A DNA stretch of 64,000 nt from Beduinella massiliensis. Its GTDB lineage: Bacteria > Bacillota > Clostridia > Christensenellales > Aristaeellaceae. The DNA lies in the NCBI RefSeq assembly GCF_900199405.1, contig NZ_LT963430.1:372001-436000 (forward strand). Reading direction: 5' to 3'. The first letter of the stretch is position 1. The number at the start of each line of letters is the position of its first letter. The notes under the pieces were generated by a model, which ran no database searches, was not told where the DNA came from, and worked only from the letters and a program-made list of their open reading frames with translations. Made by a program: the position numbers and the translations under genes. This document shows, piece by piece, positions 1,316-9,342 of this stretch.

Positions 1316-3049
1316 ATGATGAAGAAGTTGCTTTCCTGTATCCTGACGCTCGCGCTCGTGCTTTGCGGCACGGGGGTGATGGCCGAGGGCTTCACGGCCG
1401 GTACCTATACGGGCACGGCGCAGGGATTCGGCGGCGAGATCGCCGCGACCGTCACCCTGTCGGACAGCGAGATCACCGAAATCAGCATCACCGGAGACGG
1501 CGAGACCGCCGGCATCGGCAGCGAGGCGATCAAGAGCCTGCCGGGCAAGATGCTGGAGGCGCAGAGCCCGAACGTGGAAGCCATGTCGGGCGCGACCGTG
1601 ACCTCCGCCGCCATCGTCGAGGCTGTCACCGCGGCGCTGAAGGAGGCGGGCGTGGATGCCGCCGCCCTCACGCCGAAGGCGCCGGAGACGGGCGATAGGA
1701 CCGAGGAGACGATCGAGGCCGACGTCGTGATCGTGGGCGCAGGCGGCGCGGGCATGTCCGCGGCGATCACCGCCGCGAACGCGGGCAAGACCGTCGTCGT
1801 CGTGGAAAAGGCCGCTATCGCGGGCGGAAACACCACCCGTGCGACGGGCGGCATGAACGCGGCCGAGACCTCCGTGCAGAAGGCCGCGGGCGTGGAGGAC
1901 TCCGTGGAGCTCTTCGTCGAGGACACGATGAAGGGCGGCAAGGAGATCAACGACAAGGCGCTCGTCACCACCCTGGCGGAGAACTCCGCCGCGGCCATCG
2001 ACTGGCTCGATTCCATCGGCGCGCCCCTGCCGGATCTGACCATGCTGGGCGGCTCCTCCGCCAAGCGCGCGCACCGTCCCGAGGGCGGCGCGGCGGTCGG
2101 CAGCTACCTGGTGCCGATCCTGCTCAAGAACTGCGAAAACAGCGACAAGATCACCATCCTTTACGAGACCCCGGCGACCCAGATCGTCATGAAGGACGGC
2201 GCGGCGGCCGGCATCAAGGCCTCCAGCGCGGCGGTCGATTACACGATCAACGCGGGCGCGGTCGTGCTGGCCAGCGGCGGCTTTGCGGCCAGCGAGGAGA
2301 TGTACACCAAGTATCAGCCCAGCCTGAAGGGCTTCGTCACCACGAACGCGCCCGGCATGACCGGCGACGGCATCGTGATGGCGGAGGAAGTCGGCGCGGC
2401 GACGGTGGACATGGAGCAGATTCAGATTCACCCGACCGTGGAACAGAGCACCAGCGCGCTCATCACCGAGGGCCTGCGCGGCGACGGCGCGATCCTCGTG
2501 AACGCCGAAGGCAAGCGCTTCATCGACGAGCTCGAGACGCGCGACGTGGTTTCCGCGGCGGAGCTTGAGCAGACGGGCGGCTATGCCTTCCTGCTGTTCG
2601 ATCAGGACCTGCGCGATCGCGTCAGCGCGGTCAACTCCTACGTGAACAAGGGCCTCACCGTGCAGGGCGACACCGTCGAAGAGCTGGCGGCCGCCATGGG
2701 CGTGGACGCGGCCGCGCTCAAGGAGACGGTGGACGGCTGGAATGCCGCGATCGAGGCGGGCAAGGACGAGGCCTTCGGCCGCACGAGCCTTGAATACCCG
2801 GTCGTCACCGCGCCCTTCTACGCGGTGAAGGTCGCCCCGGGCGTGCACCACACCATGGGCGGCGTGAAGATCGACCCGGAGACCCAGGTCATCGACGTGA
2901 ACGGAAACGTGATCCCGGGCCTGTACGCGGCGGGCGAGGTCACCGGCGGCGTGCATGGCGCGAACCGACTGGGCGGCAACGCGGTGGCGGACGTCATCGT
3001 CTTCGGCCGCATCGCGGGCGAGAACGCGGCGGCGTACGCAAGCAAGTAA
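1316..3049 (+). CDS. Secreted FMN_bind/FAD fumarate-reductase-like flavoprotein 1
   Basis: 577 residues: Sec signal peptide (1-23, cleavage after VMA), FMN_bind domain (about 28-112) with the flavinylation motif SGATVT (91-96, predicted FMN ester on Thr94), then an FAD-binding reductase domain starting with GAGGAG (141-146). The region keeps the residues expected of fumarate-reductase-type active sites: HPT, EGLRG, HHTMGG and GANRLGGNA. By analogy with flavocytochrome c and extracytosolic flavin reductases it should reduce an alpha,beta-unsaturated acid such as fumarate outside the membrane, with electrons arriving through covalent FMN. The flavin transferase (ApbE) needed is not in the window. 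Start at ATG 1316 is set by AAGGGAG at 1301-1307 and the signal peptide. First of three paralogues. Confidence 0.88.
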   Translation: MMKKLLSCILTLALVLCGTGVMAEGFTAGTYTGTAQGFGGEIAATVTLSDSEITEISITGDGETAGIGSEAIKSLPGKMLEAQSPNVEAMSGATVTSAAIVEAVTAALKEAGVDAAALTPKAPETGDRTEETIEADVVIVGAGGAGMSAAITAANAGKTVVVVEKAAIAGGNTTRATGGMNAAETSVQKAAGVEDSVELFVEDTMKGGKEINDKALVTTLAENSAAAIDWLDSIGAPLPDLTMLGGSSAKRAHRPEGGAAVGSYLVPILLKNCENSDKITILYETPATQIVMKDGAAAGIKASSAAVDYTINAGAVVLASGGFAASEEMYTKYQPSLKGFVTTNAPGMTGDGIVMAEEVGAATVDMEQIQIHPTVEQSTSALITEGLRGDGAILVNAEGKRFIDELETRDVVSAAELEQTGGYAFLLFDQDLRDRVSAVNSYVNKGLTVQGDTVEELAAAMGVDAAALKETVDGWNAAIEAGKDEAFGRTSLEYPVVTAPFYAVKVAPGVHHTMGGVKIDPETQVIDVNGNVIPGLYAAGEVTGGVHGANRLGGNAVADVIVFGRIAGENAAAYASK

Positions 3050-3219: not shown

Positions 3220-4023
3220 ATGCGCTATAAAATTCACGAGGCCGCCAAGATGCTGGGCATCAGCCCGCAGACGCTGAGGTTTTATGAACAATACGGCATC
3301 CTGACGCACGAACGCACCGGCGAGGGCGGATACCGGCAGTACACCGACGTGAGCATGGACCTGCTGATGAGCCTGCGCAAGTGCCGCAACTGCGGCTTTA
3401 CGGTCGCCCAGACCGCGGAGATTCTGCGCGAGGAGGACGGCGGGCGGATCGGCGAGGCGCTGGAGGCGCGCGCGGAGACATTGGAGCGCCAGGCGGAGAT
3501 GCAGCTTCGCATCGCGAAAAGCCTGCGCGCGACGGCCGTCCTGGCCCGCCGGGGCGACGAGGGAATGGACCGGTATGAAGAGCGTGAACGGCCGGAGAGC
3601 TTCGCGATGGTCGTCAAGCGGGCGGGCGCGAAACGCCCGGAGCCGCACGCCATGGATCAGGTGGGCATCTGGGCGGAATGGCTGCCGCTGGTGCGCTGGA
3701 TGATCCGCTATCAGCCGGACGACCTGGAGGCGGGCGAACGGCCGGACTTGGGGTTCATCGTGGATGCGCAGAATGCCGCATTCCTGGGCGTGGAACGGCT
3801 GCCTGGCATCGAGCGCATCCCCGCCTGCCCCTGCCTGTACACCCTGATGCGCTGGCGGACGGGAACGGGGGAATTGCTGGATTGCCTGCGCCGGGGCGCC
3901 GGGGAGGCGGCGCGGCGCGGATGGGTGCTTTGCGGCGCGCCGGTCGTCAGCACGCTGTGGAACGCCGGGGCGAAGGAAGAGCCCGTCAGCCGCGGAGAAT
4001 TTTGGTTTCCTATCGGAAAATGA
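3220..4023 (+). CDS. MerR-family transcriptional regulator
   Basis: 267 residues. The first ~70 are a MerR winged helix (HEAAKMLGISPQTLRFYEQYGIL, then GGYRQYT) and residues ~75-110 form the dimerisation helix. Residues ~125-267 are an effector domain that looks like a GyrI/SOUL-type ligand fold, so a small-molecule inducer is likely. ATG 3220 follows GGGGTGAG. A TATAAT at 3194-3199 provides its -10, the -35 being weak. The gene directly precedes flavoprotein 2, whose promoter has the 19-bp spacer typical of MerR-activated promoters, so that gene is its probable target. The inducer is unknown. Confidence 0.88.
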   Translation: MRYKIHEAAKMLGISPQTLRFYEQYGILTHERTGEGGYRQYTDVSMDLLMSLRKCRNCGFTVAQTAEILREEDGGRIGEALEARAETLERQAEMQLRIAKSLRATAVLARRGDEGMDRYEERERPESFAMVVKRAGAKRPEPHAMDQVGIWAEWLPLVRWMIRYQPDDLEAGERPDLGFIVDAQNAAFLGVERLPGIERIPACPCLYTLMRWRTGTGELLDCLRRGAGEAARRGWVLCGAPVVSTLWNAGAKEEPVSRGEFWFPIGK

Positions 4024-4044: not shown

Positions 4045-4075
4045 TTGACCCTCATATACCTTTAACCTTTATAAT
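4045..4075 (+). promoter_or_regulatory. Promoter with 19-bp spacer, probable MerR target
   Basis: TTGACC (4045-4050) and a perfect TATAAT (4070-4075) are separated by 19 bp. Such a long spacer is poor for RNA polymerase alone and is the signature of MerR-activated promoters. No long dyad is evident in the spacer. Confidence 0.65.
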
Positions 4076-4125: not shown

Positions 4126-5928
4126 ATGATGACAAAGAAGACGCTCAGCATGCTGCTGGCGCTGGTGATGACGCTCTGCCTGGGCGTGACGGCCTTTGCA
4201 GAGGACTACACGGCGACGGCCAAGGGCTTTGGCGGCGACGTCACCGTGACGCTGACGATTGAGGACGGCAAGCTGACGAACGTGCAGGCAGAGGGCCCGG
4301 ACGAAACCGCGGGCATCGGCACCATGGCGATCGAGCAGCTGCCCGGCGCGATGGTCGAAAGGAACAGCGTCGAGGTGGACGCCGTCGCGAGCGCGACGGT
4401 CACCAGCACGGCGGTGCTGGCCGCTGCGGCGGACGCGCTGGGTCAGTCGGGCGTGACGCTGGAGGCCGCGCAGCAAGCCGCTCCCGCGGAAAAGGAGAGC
4501 GTAAAGCCTGCCTTTGAAAACCCGGACGTCATCGTGATCGGCGCGGGCTTTTCGGGCATGAACGCGGCCCTGGAGGCTGCGGAAAACGGCGCGAAGGTCT
4601 ACCTGATCGACAAGAACAACGCCATGGGCGGCTCCATCCGCTTCGCGGGCGGCACCACCTCCGCGGCGGGCGCCAAGATGCAGATCGCGGCGGGCGTGGA
4701 GGATTCACCGGAAAACTTCCAGGCGGACATCGTCCGCATGGGCGGCGGCACCAACGTGGAAGAGCTGACGCGCAAGCACACCGAATGCGCGGCCGCGGCC
4801 ATCGACTGGCTGGACAGCCTGGGCGCGGACTTCGGTGACCGCGAGCCGAAGATGTCCTCCTCCTACGACGCGTTTAACGTGCCGCGCGAGTACCGCGTGC
4901 AGGGCGGCGGAAACGCCATGGTCGAGCTGGTGAAGCCGCTGATCGAGCAGCACGTGGAAAAGGGCGACATCGCCCTGCTGCTGGAGACCGAGGTCGCGGA
5001 CATCATCGTCGAGGACGGCGCCGTGAAGGGCGTCGTGCTGACGGACGGCAGCGAGTACCGCGCGGCCGCTACGATTCTGGCGACGGGCGGCTACGGCCAC
5101 AACGAAGAGCTGCTGCACCGCTACAATTACAAGAACGTGCTGACCATGTCGCCCTCCTTCGTGACCGGCGACGGCTATAAGTTCGCCGAGAAGGCGGGCG
5201 CGATCTTCAACAACATGGACTACCTGCCCGCTTATCCGGGCGGCGTGCCGGTCGGCGGCTTCGACGTTTCCTGCACGGCCTCCGTGCAGTACCCGGGCGT
5301 CATCTGGGTGGACAACACCGGCAGCCGCATGGTCAAGGAGCTGGGCAGCCTGGACAGCGAGCGCAAGGCGGCCTATGCGGGCGCGCCGGAAAACCTCGTG
5401 TACATGATCCTCACCCAGCAGATGAAGGACACGCAGGATCCGATCCTGAGCGTCGGCGGCGGCTTCTCCGGCAAGCCGGACGAGGGCTGGGCCTACTTTG
5501 ACGAGCTGCTCGCCTCCGGCAACTGCGTGTACAAGGGAGAGACGCTGGAAGAGCTGGCCCAGAACGCGGGCATCGACGCGGCGGGCCTCGCCGCGACCGT
5601 CGAAGCCTACAACGGCTACGTGCAGGCGGGCGAGGACAAGGAATTCGGCCGCGCGGCGGACACCCTGGCAAAGCTCGAGGGTCCGTTCTACGCCATCAAG
5701 ACCTGCCCGTACGTGATGCTCACCAAGGGCGGCCCGCTGATGAACCCCGACGCTCAGACGCTGAACGCGGATCACGAGCCCATCCCGGGCCTGTACCAGT
5801 GCGGCGAGCTGACCGGCGGCGCCAACGTCGGCGGCAGCGCGAACATCGGCGGCCTGGCGAATACCAGCTGCATCGTGTGGGGCAAGATCGCGGGCGCGAA
5901 CGCCGCGGCCTACGCGCTGGGGAAGTAA
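4126..5928 (+). CDS. Secreted FMN_bind/FAD reductase-like flavoprotein 2
   Basis: 600 residues: Sec signal peptide (1-26, cleavage after AFA), FMN_bind domain (about 27-105), FAD-binding domain beginning GAGFSG (139-144). It differs from paralogue 1 in two ways. The flavin-attachment motif reads DAVASAT (85-91) rather than D-x-x-SGAT. The fumarate-reductase signatures HPT, EGLRG, HHTMGG and GANRLGGNA are absent; the corresponding C-terminal segments are KGGPLMN and GGSANIGGLAN. The fold and location point to an extracytoplasmic reductase, but the substrate must differ from fumarate. AGGAGG at 4111-4116 supports ATG 4126. It follows a MerR gene and is closed by a bidirectional terminator. Confidence 0.85.
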   Translation: MMTKKTLSMLLALVMTLCLGVTAFAEDYTATAKGFGGDVTVTLTIEDGKLTNVQAEGPDETAGIGTMAIEQLPGAMVERNSVEVDAVASATVTSTAVLAAAADALGQSGVTLEAAQQAAPAEKESVKPAFENPDVIVIGAGFSGMNAALEAAENGAKVYLIDKNNAMGGSIRFAGGTTSAAGAKMQIAAGVEDSPENFQADIVRMGGGTNVEELTRKHTECAAAAIDWLDSLGADFGDREPKMSSSYDAFNVPREYRVQGGGNAMVELVKPLIEQHVEKGDIALLLETEVADIIVEDGAVKGVVLTDGSEYRAAATILATGGYGHNEELLHRYNYKNVLTMSPSFVTGDGYKFAEKAGAIFNNMDYLPAYPGGVPVGGFDVSCTASVQYPGVIWVDNTGSRMVKELGSLDSERKAAYAGAPENLVYMILTQQMKDTQDPILSVGGGFSGKPDEGWAYFDELLASGNCVYKGETLEELAQNAGIDAAGLAATVEAYNGYVQAGEDKEFGRAADTLAKLEGPFYAIKTCPYVMLTKGGPLMNPDAQTLNADHEPIPGLYQCGELTGGANVGGSANIGGLANTSCIVWGKIAGANAAAYALGK

Positions 5929-5945
5929 CGCAAGCCCCTTCTCAT

Positions 5946-6018
5946 GAAAAAAACCGCCTCTGGAGACGGCGGCCGGCAATCGTCCGGCTGGCCCCCGTCT
6001 TCAAGGGGCGGTTTTTGC
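5946..6018. terminator. Bidirectional terminator between convergent genes
   Basis: AAAAAACCGCC near 5948 pairs with GGGGCGGTTTTT near 6006-6017, with an inner stem GGCCGG/CCGGCT. A-rich and T-rich flanks allow it to serve flavoprotein 2 (plus) and the PucR-type regulator (minus). Confidence 0.8.
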
Positions 6019-6024
6019 TGCGCT

Positions 6025-7233
6025 TCATTCGAGATAGTCGAGAAGGCGCAGCGAGAGCGCCAGGGCAAAGCGCGTCTGTTCGTCCTCCAGGTCGAGCGCG
6101 TAGAGCGCCTCGATGCGGGAGAGGCGGTAGAGCACGGTGTTGACGTGCACGAACAGCCTTCCCGCCGTGCGCGACGCCTTGAAAGCGCACTGCGCGTGCG
6201 CACGCAGGGTTTCAAAGAACTGCGTACCCTCCCGCTCGTCGTCCGCGCGCATCCTGAGCAGCTGCGGGTGGCAGTAGGAGCGCAGGATTTCAGGCGACAG
6301 CCCGGATTCGTAAAAAAGGCCGCACTCGGCGTGATCCTCAAAGAAGACGACGCTGCCCGCCTGCGCGCGGCGGAGCGCGGGCAGGGCCAGCATGCGTTCG
6401 TGCTCGCGGGCGCAGCCAAGTAGGTCGCTGAAGACGGGCGAGACGCAGGCGGCGCATTGGCTCTTGCCCAAAAGGGCCGCGAGGCGGCCGTCCAGCAGCA
6501 CGGCGCCGCGCGCGGGCGTGCGTTCTGCACGCAGCAGCGCGCAGGCGCAGTCCTCCGCGGGCGTCATCCAGCAGCCGGGGTAGAGCGCCTCCAGCGAGCG
6601 GCGCAGCAGCGGATAGACGTATTCGAGCACGCCCCCGCGCATCACCACCGTCAGCAGCCGGTAGCGGGCGTGCTCCTCCGGCGCGGGCGCGGCGGATTCG
6701 ACCATCAGGCGCGTTAACGTCGTGATCTTGCGCCCGAGCAGCGCGCTCAGCAGCTCGTCCGGCGAGAGCATCTGGTGGCTCATGCCCGCCGCGACGCAGG
6801 CGAGGCCGACGAAGCGGCTCGCGAGGCGGATGCGCTCGTCGTCGATCTCCTCCAGCGGCGTTTCCAGCTCCAGCACCGAGATGTGGCCGAAGAAGGTCCT
6901 GCCGATGTGAACGTAGCACAGCTTCAGCCGGTGCGTGTAGGAATCGACGATGAAGGGGCGGTCCCAATGCTCGCGCCGGTACCGCTCGGAGATGAACTCC
7001 AGGTAGCGGTCGCTGCCCAGGGGCTTGTCCTTGGGGTAGATGGAGTCGAGCAGCTCCTGAAAGTCCGCCTGCGGATAGCCGCCGGATTTGACGCTCTTCT
7101 CCGGCGCGCCGACGGGGGAAAGGCGCACCGGCGTGCCCAGGTATTCTTCGCAGGCGTCGAGCATCTGTTTGATCGTGCAGCCGTCGAAGGTGAGGCGCAT
7201 GAGGCGCTCGGCGCCGGCAAGCGATGGGGTCAA
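6025..7233 (-). CDS. PucR/CdaR-type transcriptional regulator
   Basis: 402 residues. The last ~60 form the PucR C-terminal helix-turn-helix: a LFVHVNTVLYRLSRIE segment followed by a LALSLRLLDYLE helix. The N-terminal ~300 residues would be the sensory part, with no motif I can name. The start is a TTG at 7233, supported by AGGAGG (7241-7246 on the plus coordinates) seven bases upstream; the later ATG at 7200 lacks a site. It is transcribed divergently from flavoprotein 3 and their promoters overlap, so it probably controls flavoprotein 3. Regulators of this family usually respond to small metabolites such as purines, sugar acids or amino acids. Confidence 0.85.
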   Translation of the reverse strand: MTPSLAGAERLMRLTFDGCTIKQMLDACEEYLGTPVRLSPVGAPEKSVKSGGYPQADFQELLDSIYPKDKPLGSDRYLEFISERYRREHWDRPFIVDSYTHRLKLCYVHIGRTFFGHISVLELETPLEEIDDERIRLASRFVGLACVAAGMSHQMLSPDELLSALLGRKITTLTRLMVESAAPAPEEHARYRLLTVVMRGGVLEYVYPLLRRSLEALYPGCWMTPAEDCACALLRAERTPARGAVLLDGRLAALLGKSQCAACVSPVFSDLLGCAREHERMLALPALRRAQAGSVVFFEDHAECGLFYESGLSPEILRSYCHPQLLRMRADDEREGTQFFETLRAHAQCAFKASRTAGRLFVHVNTVLYRLSRIEALYALDLEDEQTRFALALSLRLLDYLE

Positions 7234-7347
7234 GCAAAGCCCTCCTCTTGGGGAAAATCACAAGCGCCGCGCGCGTGAGGCGCAAAGGCCGACTGACGCG
7301 GAACTTGATTGTGAAGAAACACAAACAAGACGCTTGAAGTTAAGACG

Positions 7348-7376
7348 ATTATACGACGCATTGAGGCAAAATACAA
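7348..7376 (-). promoter_or_regulatory. Promoter of PucR-type regulator
   Basis: On the minus strand TTGTAT (7376-7371), a 17-bp spacer and a perfect TATAAT (7353-7348). It overlaps the upstream half of the divergent flavoprotein 3 promoter. Confidence 0.6.
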
Positions 7377-7385
7377 TGCTATAAT
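7377..7385 (+). promoter_or_regulatory. Extended -10 promoter of flavoprotein 3
   Basis: TGCTATAAT (7377-7385) is a perfect extended -10. No good -35 is present, so an activator is plausible. Its -35 region coincides with the -35 of the divergent regulator promoter. Confidence 0.6.
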
Positions 7386-7467
7386 GTCTTCGCTACGAAA
7401 GGAAATCGTCGAAAAAGAGACAAACTTGATTTCTGGCGGTTTTCACAAGCGACAAGGAGGAAGAAAC

Positions 7468-9342
7468 ATGAAGGAGAACATGAAGCGCTTTGCCGCGCTG
7501 CTGCTTAGCGCGATGATGGCGCTGTGCATGCTGCCGGCGCTGGCGGAGGACGCCGTGTTTGAGGACACGGTGGACTGGGACGGCGAGTACGACGTAGTCG
7601 TCGTGGGCTTCGGCGGCGCGGGCGCGGTGACGGCGATCACCGCGGCGGACGCGGGCGCGAAGGTGCTGCTGCTGGAAAAGGCGCCGGAAGGCGAGGCGGG
7701 CGGCAACACGCGCTATGCGGCGCAGATCATCCTCTGCCCGACGGACCGCGAAGGCGCGATCACCTACTTCAAGGCGATGCGCGGCGGCTTTGACAACCAG
7801 AGCGACGAGGTGATCGAGACGATCGTCGACGGCGCGATGGCCGTTCCGGAATTCCTCGAAAAGCTGGGCGCGGACCCGGAGAAGTTCGGTCATTACCCGC
7901 TGATCGAGTACCCGGAGCTCCCCGGCAGCGAGTCCATCAGCACCGTGGAGGTGGACGGCGAGCTGTGGACCAGCAAGTTCTGGCAGCTGCTGCTGAAGAA
8001 CGTGAACGAGCGCACGGTCGCGGAGAACATCGACCTGTGGTACGAGGCCCCGGCGACGGACCTGATCCAGGATCCGGCGACCCGCATCATTCACGGCGTG
8101 AAGGTGGCGAAGGACGGCCGGGAGCTGAACATCCGCGCCAGGAACGGCGTGGTGCTCTGCTGCGGCGGCTTTGAAAACAACGAGGACATGATCGAGAACT
8201 ACGTGCAGATGCCCGAGGCGTATTCAAAGGGCGCGCGCTACAACACCGGCGACGGCATCAAGATGGCGATGGCGGTGGGCGCGGACCTGTGGCACATGAG
8301 CACGCTCTCCGGCCCGGACGTCAACTTCGTGAATCCTGAGACGGGCGTGGCGCCCGGCTACTTCGGCGTGACCTCCACCAAGAGCGGCGCGTACACCGGC
8401 TTCACCCAGATGAGCGCCATCGTCGTGGGCGCGGACGGCACGCGCTACATGAACGAGACGGTCACCCCCAGCCACGGACACGTGAACTTCCACGGCATGT
8501 GGGTTTCCCAGATCATCCCCAATCCCTCCTACATGATCTTCGACGAGAAGGCGCGCCTGGCAGCGCCGGTCTATCCGTCCTGGAGCGAGGGCAATGCGGA
8601 TGAGATCGAAAAGGGATGGATCATCAAAGCGGATACGCTGGACGAGCTGAACGATAAGCTCGGCCTGCCGGCGGGCTCGCTCGCGGCCACGGTCGAAAAG
8701 TACAACGGCTACTGCGCGGCGGGCGAGGATCTGGAGTACGCGACCATCCCGGAATACCTGGTGGCGCTGGACGAAACCGGGCCCTACTACGCGCTGCCGC
8801 TGAAGGCGACCTTCACCAACACCCAGGGCGGCCCGAAGCGCAACGTGCAGTGCGAGGTGCTCGACACCAAGGGCAGGGCGATTCCGCACCTTTACAGCGC
8901 GGGCGAACTGGGCAGCTTCTACTGCGACATTTACAACGGCGGCGGCAACCTGGCTGAATGCGTGTTCAGCGGCCGCGCCGCAGGCGCGAACGCCGCGGCG
9001 GCCAAGAGCGACGTGGCGGCCAAGTCCGTGATGGAAGGCAAGACCGCTTATGTGCCCGAAAAGAAGGAAAGCGCCGTTTCCCTCTCCGAGAACGAGCGCA
9101 TGGGCGAGGCCCAGGGCATGGGCGGCACACTGAGCGTGAAGGTGACGATGGACGGCGAAAAGATCGCCAAGGTCGAGGTGGTTTCGCACACCGAGACGGC
9201 GGGCATCTCCGACGGCGCCATCGAGAAGATTCCGGCGGCGATCGTCGAGAAGCAGTCCACCGACGTGGACACGGTTTCCGGCGCGACGGTGACCAGCAAG
9301 GCGATCATTGAAGCGGTGAACGCGGCGCTCGCCGAAAAGTAA
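7468..9342 (+). CDS. Secreted FAD/FMN_bind flavoprotein 3, permuted domain order
   Basis: 624 residues: Sec signal peptide (1-27, cleavage after ALA), FAD-binding domain beginning GFGGAG (47-52), then a C-terminal FMN_bind domain (about 540-620) whose motif DTVSGAT ends at Thr607, the predicted covalent FMN site. The domain order is the reverse of paralogues 1 and 2. Near the active site it has TQGGPKRN and YNGGGNLAEC instead of HHTMGG and GANRLGGNA, so it is unlikely to be a plain fumarate reductase; urocanate- or enoate-reductase-like roles are possible. AAGGAGG (7454-7460) fixes ATG 7468; the upstream in-frame ATG at 7384 lies within the promoter. It is divergent from the PucR-type regulator. 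Confidence 0.87.
   Translation: MKENMKRFAALLLSAMMALCMLPALAEDAVFEDTVDWDGEYDVVVVGFGGAGAVTAITAADAGAKVLLLEKAPEGEAGGNTRYAAQIILCPTDREGAITYFKAMRGGFDNQSDEVIETIVDGAMAVPEFLEKLGADPEKFGHYPLIEYPELPGSESISTVEVDGELWTSKFWQLLLKNVNERTVAENIDLWYEAPATDLIQDPATRIIHGVKVAKDGRELNIRARNGVVLCCGGFENNEDMIENYVQMPEAYSKGARYNTGDGIKMAMAVGADLWHMSTLSGPDVNFVNPETGVAPGYFGVTSTKSGAYTGFTQMSAIVVGADGTRYMNETVTPSHGHVNFHGMWVSQIIPNPSYMIFDEKARLAAPVYPSWSEGNADEIEKGWIIKADTLDELNDKLGLPAGSLAATVEKYNGYCAAGEDLEYATIPEYLVALDETGPYYALPLKATFTNTQGGPKRNVQCEVLDTKGRAIPHLYSAGELGSFYCDIYNGGGNLAECVFSGRAAGANAAAAKSDVAAKSVMEGKTAYVPEKKESAVSLSENERMGEAQGMGGTLSVKVTMDGEKIAKVEVVSHTETAGISDGAIEKIPAAIVEKQSTDVDTVSGATVTSKAIIEAVNAALAEK

Follow-up and report, generated by a model that had tools for sequence, protein, structure and literature searches.

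Two predicted flavinylated reductases of Beduinella massiliensis lack the fumarate-reductase substrate clamp and adjoin their own regulators

Here, we analysed a 64,000-nucleotide stretch of the genome of Beduinella massiliensis (GCF_900199405.1, contig NZ_LT963430.1, positions 372,001 to 436,000; hereafter the window), which carries three flavoprotein genes whose products, FP1, FP2 and FP3, all match the Pfam domains FAD_binding_2 and FMN_bind above the Pfam cut-offs. FP1 keeps the Arg/His/Arg triad of fumarate reductases, and in FP2 and FP3 all three sites hold other residues, which is common to the whole clade of each. We consider it probable that FP2 and FP3 are separately induced, extracytosolic flavin adenine dinucleotide (FAD) reductases carrying flavin mononucleotide (FMN) attached by ApbE, that they come from two old clades, and that their acceptors are not bound in the way of fumarate. 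The features concerned are as follows (window coordinates, strand, description and basis).

1316-3049, + strand: FP1, FMN_bind and FAD_binding_2, fumarate-reductase type (Pfam, translation)
3220-4023, + strand: MerR-family regulator between FP1 and FP2, on the same strand as FP2 (Pfam)
4045-4075, + strand: promoter-like block TTGACC-N19-TATAAT in the gap between MerR and FP2 (conservation in three genomes)
4126-5928, + strand: FP2, FMN_bind then FAD_binding_2 (Pfam, translation)
4390-4407, + strand: putative FP2 flavinylation site ASAT, expected acceptor T91 (translation)
4840-4866, + strand: FP2 R239 to Y247 (each unchanged across the six members of the FP2 clade)
5287-5292, + strand: FP2 Q388-Y389, Q388 being at the Arg381 proton-relay site (alignment)
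5350-5364, + strand: FP2 L409, at the site of the catalytic Arg402, and R413 four residues on (alignment)
5716-5844, + strand: FP2 M531 (His504 site) to N573 (Arg544 site) (alignment)
6025-7233, - strand: PucR/CdaR-type regulator with a PucR C-terminal helix-turn-helix, divergent from FP3 (Pfam)
7468-9342, + strand: FP3, FAD_binding_2 then C-terminal FMN_bind (Pfam, translation)
8473-8475, + strand: FP3 H336 in E-x5-H-G, candidate acid near the Arg402 site (family alignment)
8932-8946, + strand: FP3 Y489 to G493, Y-x3-G (aligned with the ketone-binding Tyr and Gly of ketosteroid dehydrogenases)

The residues of the substrate site were compared by aligning the three proteins with Fcc3 and UrdA. 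FP1 keeps H372, E385, R388, R409, H511 and R551. At the sites of the catalytic Arg402, of the histidine and of the second arginine, the latter two of which we take to be His504 and Arg544 in Fcc3 numbering, FP2 has Leu409, Met531 and Asn573, and FP3 has Pro334, Thr450 and Tyr489. An alignment of the FP2 clade to UrdA by hidden Markov model returned the same FP2-UrdA pairing, in which UrdA Arg411, His520, Arg560 and Asp388 face Leu409, Met531, Asn573 and Ser386, and only a tyrosine is common to the two (Y370 in FP2, Tyr373 in UrdA, at the site of Fcc3 His365). Glu378 is absent from FP2 and FP3, and so is an arginine at the Arg381 site, which is occupied by Gln388 in FP2 and, depending on the alignment, by Lys or Thr in FP3. 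As controls, Escherichia coli SdhA, FrdA and NadB all have Arg/His/Arg.

These alignments bear on the original prediction, made from the letters alone, that two of the three reductases have lost the fumarate-reductase signatures. The motifs it quoted all exist, at corresponding places: HPT (2429-2437), EGLRG (2468-2482), HHTMGG (2846-2863) and GANRLGGNA (2957-2983) in FP1, KGGPLMN (5725-5745) and GGSANIGGLAN (5830-5862) in FP2, and TQGGPKRN (8821-8844) and YNGGGNLAEC (8932-8961) in FP3; FP1 itself falls outside the span of 4126-9342 to which the prediction was attached. The signatures are indeed replaced in FP2 and FP3, and no catalytic Arg or His conserved at a displaced position was found in their alignment. 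Its list of sites needs amending, as it left out the catalytic Arg402 (in E-x-x-T-R-D), which is also gone from both proteins. HPT and EGLRG, though present in FP1, are not catalytic marks as such: UrdA has Tyr for the His of the former, lacks the Glu of the latter (Glu378) while keeping its Arg381 (as Arg390), and, as counted along its sequence, places Arg411 in E-x-x-R-R-D rather than in EGLRG. Methacrylate reductase, which the prediction had also named for comparison, was compared through its published description and not by sequence; both arginines and the histidine are kept there, according to the accessible text (PMC4427408).

In the available portion of the UrdA report, the substrate is contacted by Arg411 (the proton donor, equivalent to Fcc3 Arg402), by His520 and by Arg560; Tyr373 stands where Fcc3 has His365, and both the R411A and R560A variants are inactive (PMC7921117). 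These substitutions abolish activity, and the fumarate, urocanate and methacrylate reductases, as far as the cited texts describe them, retain the histidine and the two arginines. That FP2 and FP3 should not reduce fumarate is therefore well supported, by inference from conserved residues. The negative half of the prediction that they act on other substrates thus stands well, while for its positive half undescribed specificities are possible on the sequence evidence.

The triad was then followed across relatives gathered from the own genome, other genomes, two contigs of metagenome-assembled genomes (MAGs) and two plasmids (63 rows, chosen by likeness to FP2 or FP3 and completed with three PDB, three E. 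coli and two plasmid sequences; for L032 and L082, whose frames have one internal stop, the open part alone was used). Arg402, His504 and Arg544 are all present in 37 of the 63 aligned rows, all absent in 24 and mixed in two, proportions that are no census, given this choice of rows. The mixed rows are L028up (Asp/His/Arg) and L044 (Ser/His/gap), and the triad-complete row L102 has NRLGGNA at the Arg544 site. The reductase upstream of MerR and FP2 in one MAG (L028, 2510-4522), with Asp at the Arg402 site and the other two residues kept, is intermediate. Within the own genome, eight domain-spanning PF00890 matches were found, seven of them with FMN_bind, and of these seven, FP1 and two more keep the triad and four do not. 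The eighth (L008, contig C3, about 325 kb), without FMN_bind and of clearly different domain layout on reading, was removed before counting and carries no triad score.

A tree built from 58 rows joins the 34 rows that have the triad and the two mixed ones in one branch of 36 (support 96), and FP2 and FP3 fall in clades of six (support 100) and seven (support 99), respectively. Three changes of the triad label are required when all 58 rows are included, two of them owed to L028up and L044; in an E. coli-rooted tree leaving out seven mostly long-branched rows (L006, L040, L098, L083, L043, L044 and L028up), one change of state is enough, at a branch support of 62, and the order of the deep clades is weakly supported (62-89). 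A recent loss specific to this locus was rejected, as the residues are missing across the whole clades of both proteins. Since the absence is common to two separate clades, any loss is therefore old, and the word lost is correct only in the sense of an ancient change; judged by sequence, the residue difference goes beyond drift.

An FP2 match was found at E<=1e-100 in one of 150 other genomes of the order and at 1e-90 in one of 347 of the phylum, and the counts for FP3 are likewise 1/150 and 1/347. Searching the phylum with the FP2-clade profile at 1e-70 gave matches in 20 of 338 genomes, and 24 of 26 further relatives scored from that profile search have the triad. A tblastn search of plasmids with FP2 returned 169 records, every one under 60% identity; comparison with PHROGs gave nothing useful, and the literature listings consulted for characterised relatives gave neither clade a substrate, a negative of little weight.

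Enzymes of the general kind of FP2 and FP3 are already known, and the divergence has precedent, as superfamily members without the triad residues have been described for ketosteroids (4at0) and, in the text available on Cgr2, for cardenolides. Fcc3/Ifc3 and the flavinylated fumarate reductases share the FAD domain and the clamp-domain fold with FP2 and FP3, but their Arg402, His504, Arg544, Glu378 and Arg381-site Arg are all absent from the two proteins, which also carry FMN_bind where Fcc3/Ifc3 has a haem domain. Against the fumarate-reductase model TIGR01813 (cut-off 285.45), FP1 scores above the cut-off (504.1) whereas FP2 (268.8) and FP3 (157.1) score below. UrdA, which has a covalent-FMN domain as FP2 carries FMN_bind (PMC7921117, in the part available), is the closest fold to the FP2 model and likewise has Tyr at the His365 site; its Arg/His/Arg is absent from FP3 as well. 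The 3-ketosteroid delta1- and delta4-dehydrogenases (KSTDs) have a ketone-binding Tyr487/Gly491 pair that is matched by Tyr489/Gly493 in FP3 and lacks its tyrosine in FP2, but FP3 has an extra FMN_bind domain and a Sec-type N-terminus, and it scores far below the NCBIfam cut-offs of that family (172.1 against 789 for PRK12844; 150.6 against 788 for PRK07843). Cgr2 of Eggerthella lenta is, by the accessible description, a PF00890 cardenolide reductase predicted to be secreted, in which six of seven fumarate and four of five urocanate residues diverge; compared by that description, it depends on [4Fe-4S] clusters and is predicted to carry a Tat signal, whereas FP2 and FP3 carry FMN_bind. VprA, which in the excerpted report reduces a vinyl phenol substrate without a carboxylate and has its own LysR-type regulator (PMC10295242), is matched weakly through NF053717 (cut-off 600; FP2 154.9 and FP3 127.8 bits).

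For FP3, every one of the nine family rows shows Tyr at the Arg544 site and seven show NTQGGP; a His-Gly pair stands six residues past a conserved Glu in seven, the His being one residue earlier in the other two. In FP3 this is His336, two residues beyond the Arg402 site. The family profile searched against the PDB placed the ketosteroid dehydrogenase 7p18 first (2.1e-52), level with Fcc3 (2.3e-52), and FP3 alone had 4at0 as its best PDB sequence match. The profile aligns Tyr489 and Gly493 with Y-P-G-A-G of 7p18, the Tyr of which is taken as the Tyr487 site because the Y-x3-G spacing matches. In KstD1, the passages available state that Tyr487 and Gly491 promote keto-enol tautomerisation and that Tyr119 and Tyr318 take the proton (PMC5348764). 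FP3-family genes with a divergent LysR gene also occur on Lactiplantibacillus plasmids (L116, 4887-6731; L117, 4983-6767), and one of them is followed by a DASS anion symporter gene.

The pocket of FP2 is probably of another kind. Tyr370, Tyr247, Tyr529, Arg239 and Arg254 are invariant in its six-member clade, Arg254 also in a ten-row alignment that includes FP1, and Tyr247 and Tyr389 align with the UrdA lid residues Phe245 and Phe391. Asn, Ser or Thr occupies the Arg544 site in the clade, and FP2 has neither the Arg402-site Arg nor the ketosteroid-type Tyr. The Arg381 site is unlikely to be catalytic, because it holds Gln in FP2 and Lys in both close orthologs. Arg413 is Arg or Lys in four of the six clade members and not basic in L024 and L025; this residue and FP3 His336 may do new work. 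The structural model of FP2 is fair, with a predicted local distance difference test (pLDDT) score of 80.8, and VIA-align gives FAD-bound UrdA (6t86) as its best PDB match (Z 40.0, root-mean-square deviation 2.5 over 440 residues), on which account the predicted fold is kept; Foldseek ranks Fcc3 chains first by E-value, and the best PDB match by sequence is 1qo8, of the Fcc3/Ifc3 type. As read from the alignments, the residue set of the FP2 clade matches none of the characterised enzymes compared. We raise tentatively, as a doubtful possibility, that the FP2 clade represents a third mode of holding an acceptor, with a tyrosine-rich pocket (Tyr370, Tyr247 and Tyr389), Asn/Ser/Thr at the Arg544 site and neither the Arg/His/Arg clamp nor the ketosteroid-type Tyr, serving an acceptor class new to flavinylated reductases under a dedicated MerR activator in this genome and two close relatives. 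Beside a distant FP2 relative, L030, CcdA-like and thioredoxin-like genes follow by reading (L070, 6581-8253), hinting at a thiol-based electron route at that locus.

A related MerR gene also precedes FP2 in the two MAGs whose FP2 orthologs are 87% and 81% identical, the regulators beside these close orthologs being 57% (L028) and 38% (L029) identical to the MerR of the window. The gap between MerR and FP2 in the three genomes contains TTGAC(C/T)-N19-TATA(A/C)T with 26 of 31 bases identical, against 12 in the best of 30 shuffles, and the pattern has one match in the window and none in 100 shuffles. A spacer of 19 or 20 base pairs (bp) is given as a mark of MerR-family promoters in the consulted portions of PMC1526738 and PMC11049809. 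Two paralogs of the own genome with an adjacent MerR gene, L076 and L068, have 10/12 promoter matches with a 19-bp spacer; such matches number eight in 306,012 strand-bases, FP2, L076 and L068 among them, and the region upstream of FP1 gives 9/12 with 17 bp at best. At L068 (5757-5989), beside a divergent MerR gene, the 19-bp spacer holds a perfect 8-bp dyad, CTGTCAAG-CGA-CTTGACAG. The neighbourhoods of the FP2-clade loci L024 and L025 were not cleanly readable. As for FP3, a divergent regulator adjoins the gene of its family at all eight loci read (nine rows, L082 unread), being PucR and AraC by Pfam, LysR twice by record annotation, and MerR, LysR twice and TetR by reading.

FP1 and FP2 carry FMN_bind at the N-terminal end and FP3 carries it at the C-terminal end; the flavinylation motif is SGAT in FP1 and FP3. 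The own genome has one ApbE gene (PF02424), 19 FMN_bind matches, and an Rnf cluster comprising RnfC, a protein with eight FMN_bind domains and an Rnf-Nqr membrane subunit; the eight-domain protein stands in the RnfG position (L067, 5887-8664, contig C3, about 2.070 Mb). Multi-flavinylated RnfG has been described, Christensenellales included, and a second route to extracytosolic acceptors suggested, and a covalent-FMN domain with a Sec-type N-terminus fits the pattern of respiratory-chain electron delivery to an enzyme, as far as the text at hand of PMC8238504 goes. We infer from this that the Rnf complex may be the donor to FP1-FP3. All three translations, read by eye, begin with a putative Sec-type N-terminus, and FP2 and FP3 are probably secreted. 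The frame of FP3 is open from 7384; given the TATAAT at about 7380 and the good ribosome-binding site in front of 7468, the latter is the likelier start.

In the mechanism we propose, the covalent FMN would be reduced by a membrane donor, for which the Rnf complex, with its RnfG-like protein of eight FMN domains, is plausible in this genome; FAD would receive the electrons next, and a hydride would go from its N5 to an activated double bond of the acceptor. Since the Arg/His/Arg clamp, catalytic arginine included, is absent, this acceptor is unlikely to be an alpha,beta-unsaturated carboxylate held as fumarate is. In FP3, a ketone, lactone or similar carbonyl would probably be held by Tyr489 and the backbone of Gly493, as in ketosteroid dehydrogenases, with His336 as the candidate acid. 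In FP2, clade-conserved tyrosines (Tyr370, Tyr247, and Tyr389 or the Phe in its place) would replace the arginines in a different pocket. The regulator beside each gene would turn that gene on, presumably in the presence of the acceptor. The sequence itself shows the domains, the missing residues, the clades, the pairing with regulators and the promoter block, whereas secretion, flavinylation, the path of the electrons, the reaction direction, the class of substrate and the inducer are predicted.

Several observations weigh against this proposal. For FP3, the model is weak (pLDDT 66.7, under 50 in the active-site stretches) and its structural matches are nearly tied (4at0 Z 33.9, UrdA 33.6, Fcc3 33.1). 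No counterpart of KSTD Tyr318 was found in FP3 at the aligned place, His336 being nearby; the corresponding Tyr of 7p18 (SPYLEF) aligns with residue 338 of the 4c3x chain, which would be Tyr318 if a 20-residue tag is counted. In Cgr2, moreover, the accessible account has the Tyr common with KSTDs dispensable and only the Gly important. In the FP3-family proteins encoded on L. plantarum plasmids, no signal peptide was recognised by reading the sequence. For FP2, the ASAT motif departs from the canonical [S/T]GA[S/T], with the expected acceptor Thr91 kept; of the two close orthologs, one has SSAT and the other ASAT. On the regulatory side, one more of the eight promoter matches, also 10/12 with a 19-bp spacer, lies upstream of the MerR gene of the window itself, the FP2 promoter spacer has no dyad of five or more, and no MerR gene was seen beside the more distant relative L030.

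Other readings of the same residues were weighed. FP2 and FP3 might still reduce unsaturated carboxylates with a clamp rebuilt from displaced residues, namely Arg413 or Arg239 in FP2 and His336 with nearby basic residues in FP3. The frequent basic residue at position 413, the invariance of Arg239 in all six clade members, the closeness of His336 to the Arg402 site and the anion symporter gene next to the plasmid FP3-family gene fit this reading, but Arg402, His504 and Arg544 have no aligned counterpart among the displaced residues, Arg413 gives way to non-basic residues in two members, and the triad is kept in the carboxylate reductases compared here or described in the literature available, so that we regard it as unlikely. 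The two enzymes might alternatively run oxidatively, as dehydrogenases making a double bond beside a carbonyl like the ketosteroid and cyclohexanone dehydrogenases. FP3 does have such neighbours in fold and sequence (4at0, 7p18, 4c3x and the 8am-series cyclohexanone dehydrogenase) and has Tyr-x3-Gly in common with KSTD; the covalent-FMN domain and the Sec-type N-terminus, however, fit delivery from a respiratory chain (the pattern of PMC8238504, within its accessible text), the Tyr318 counterpart is missing, and the scores stay far from the KSTD cut-offs, which leaves this direction quite improbable.

That FP2, FP3 or both are catalytically degenerate and mere flavin electron carriers would agree with the disappearance of the known catalytic residues and with the altered flavinylation motif of FP2. 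We give this very little credence: the FAD-domain residues and the clade-specific pocket residues do not vary in the aligned rows, six of the FP2 clade and five of the FP3 family, both genes have adjacent regulators, and the promoter of FP2 is conserved.

The reading of FP2 and FP3 as separately induced reductases with acceptors unlike fumarate has a wider bearing on the family. The rule that the triad is either complete or absent splits the sampled relatives cleanly and indicates for which paralogs a name as fumarate- or urocanate-type reductase is admissible and for which it is not, arguing against the label fumarate reductase on genes of the FP2 and FP3 types. The paired regulators, together with the conserved promoter of FP2, would offer a direct route to the acceptor through inducer screening.

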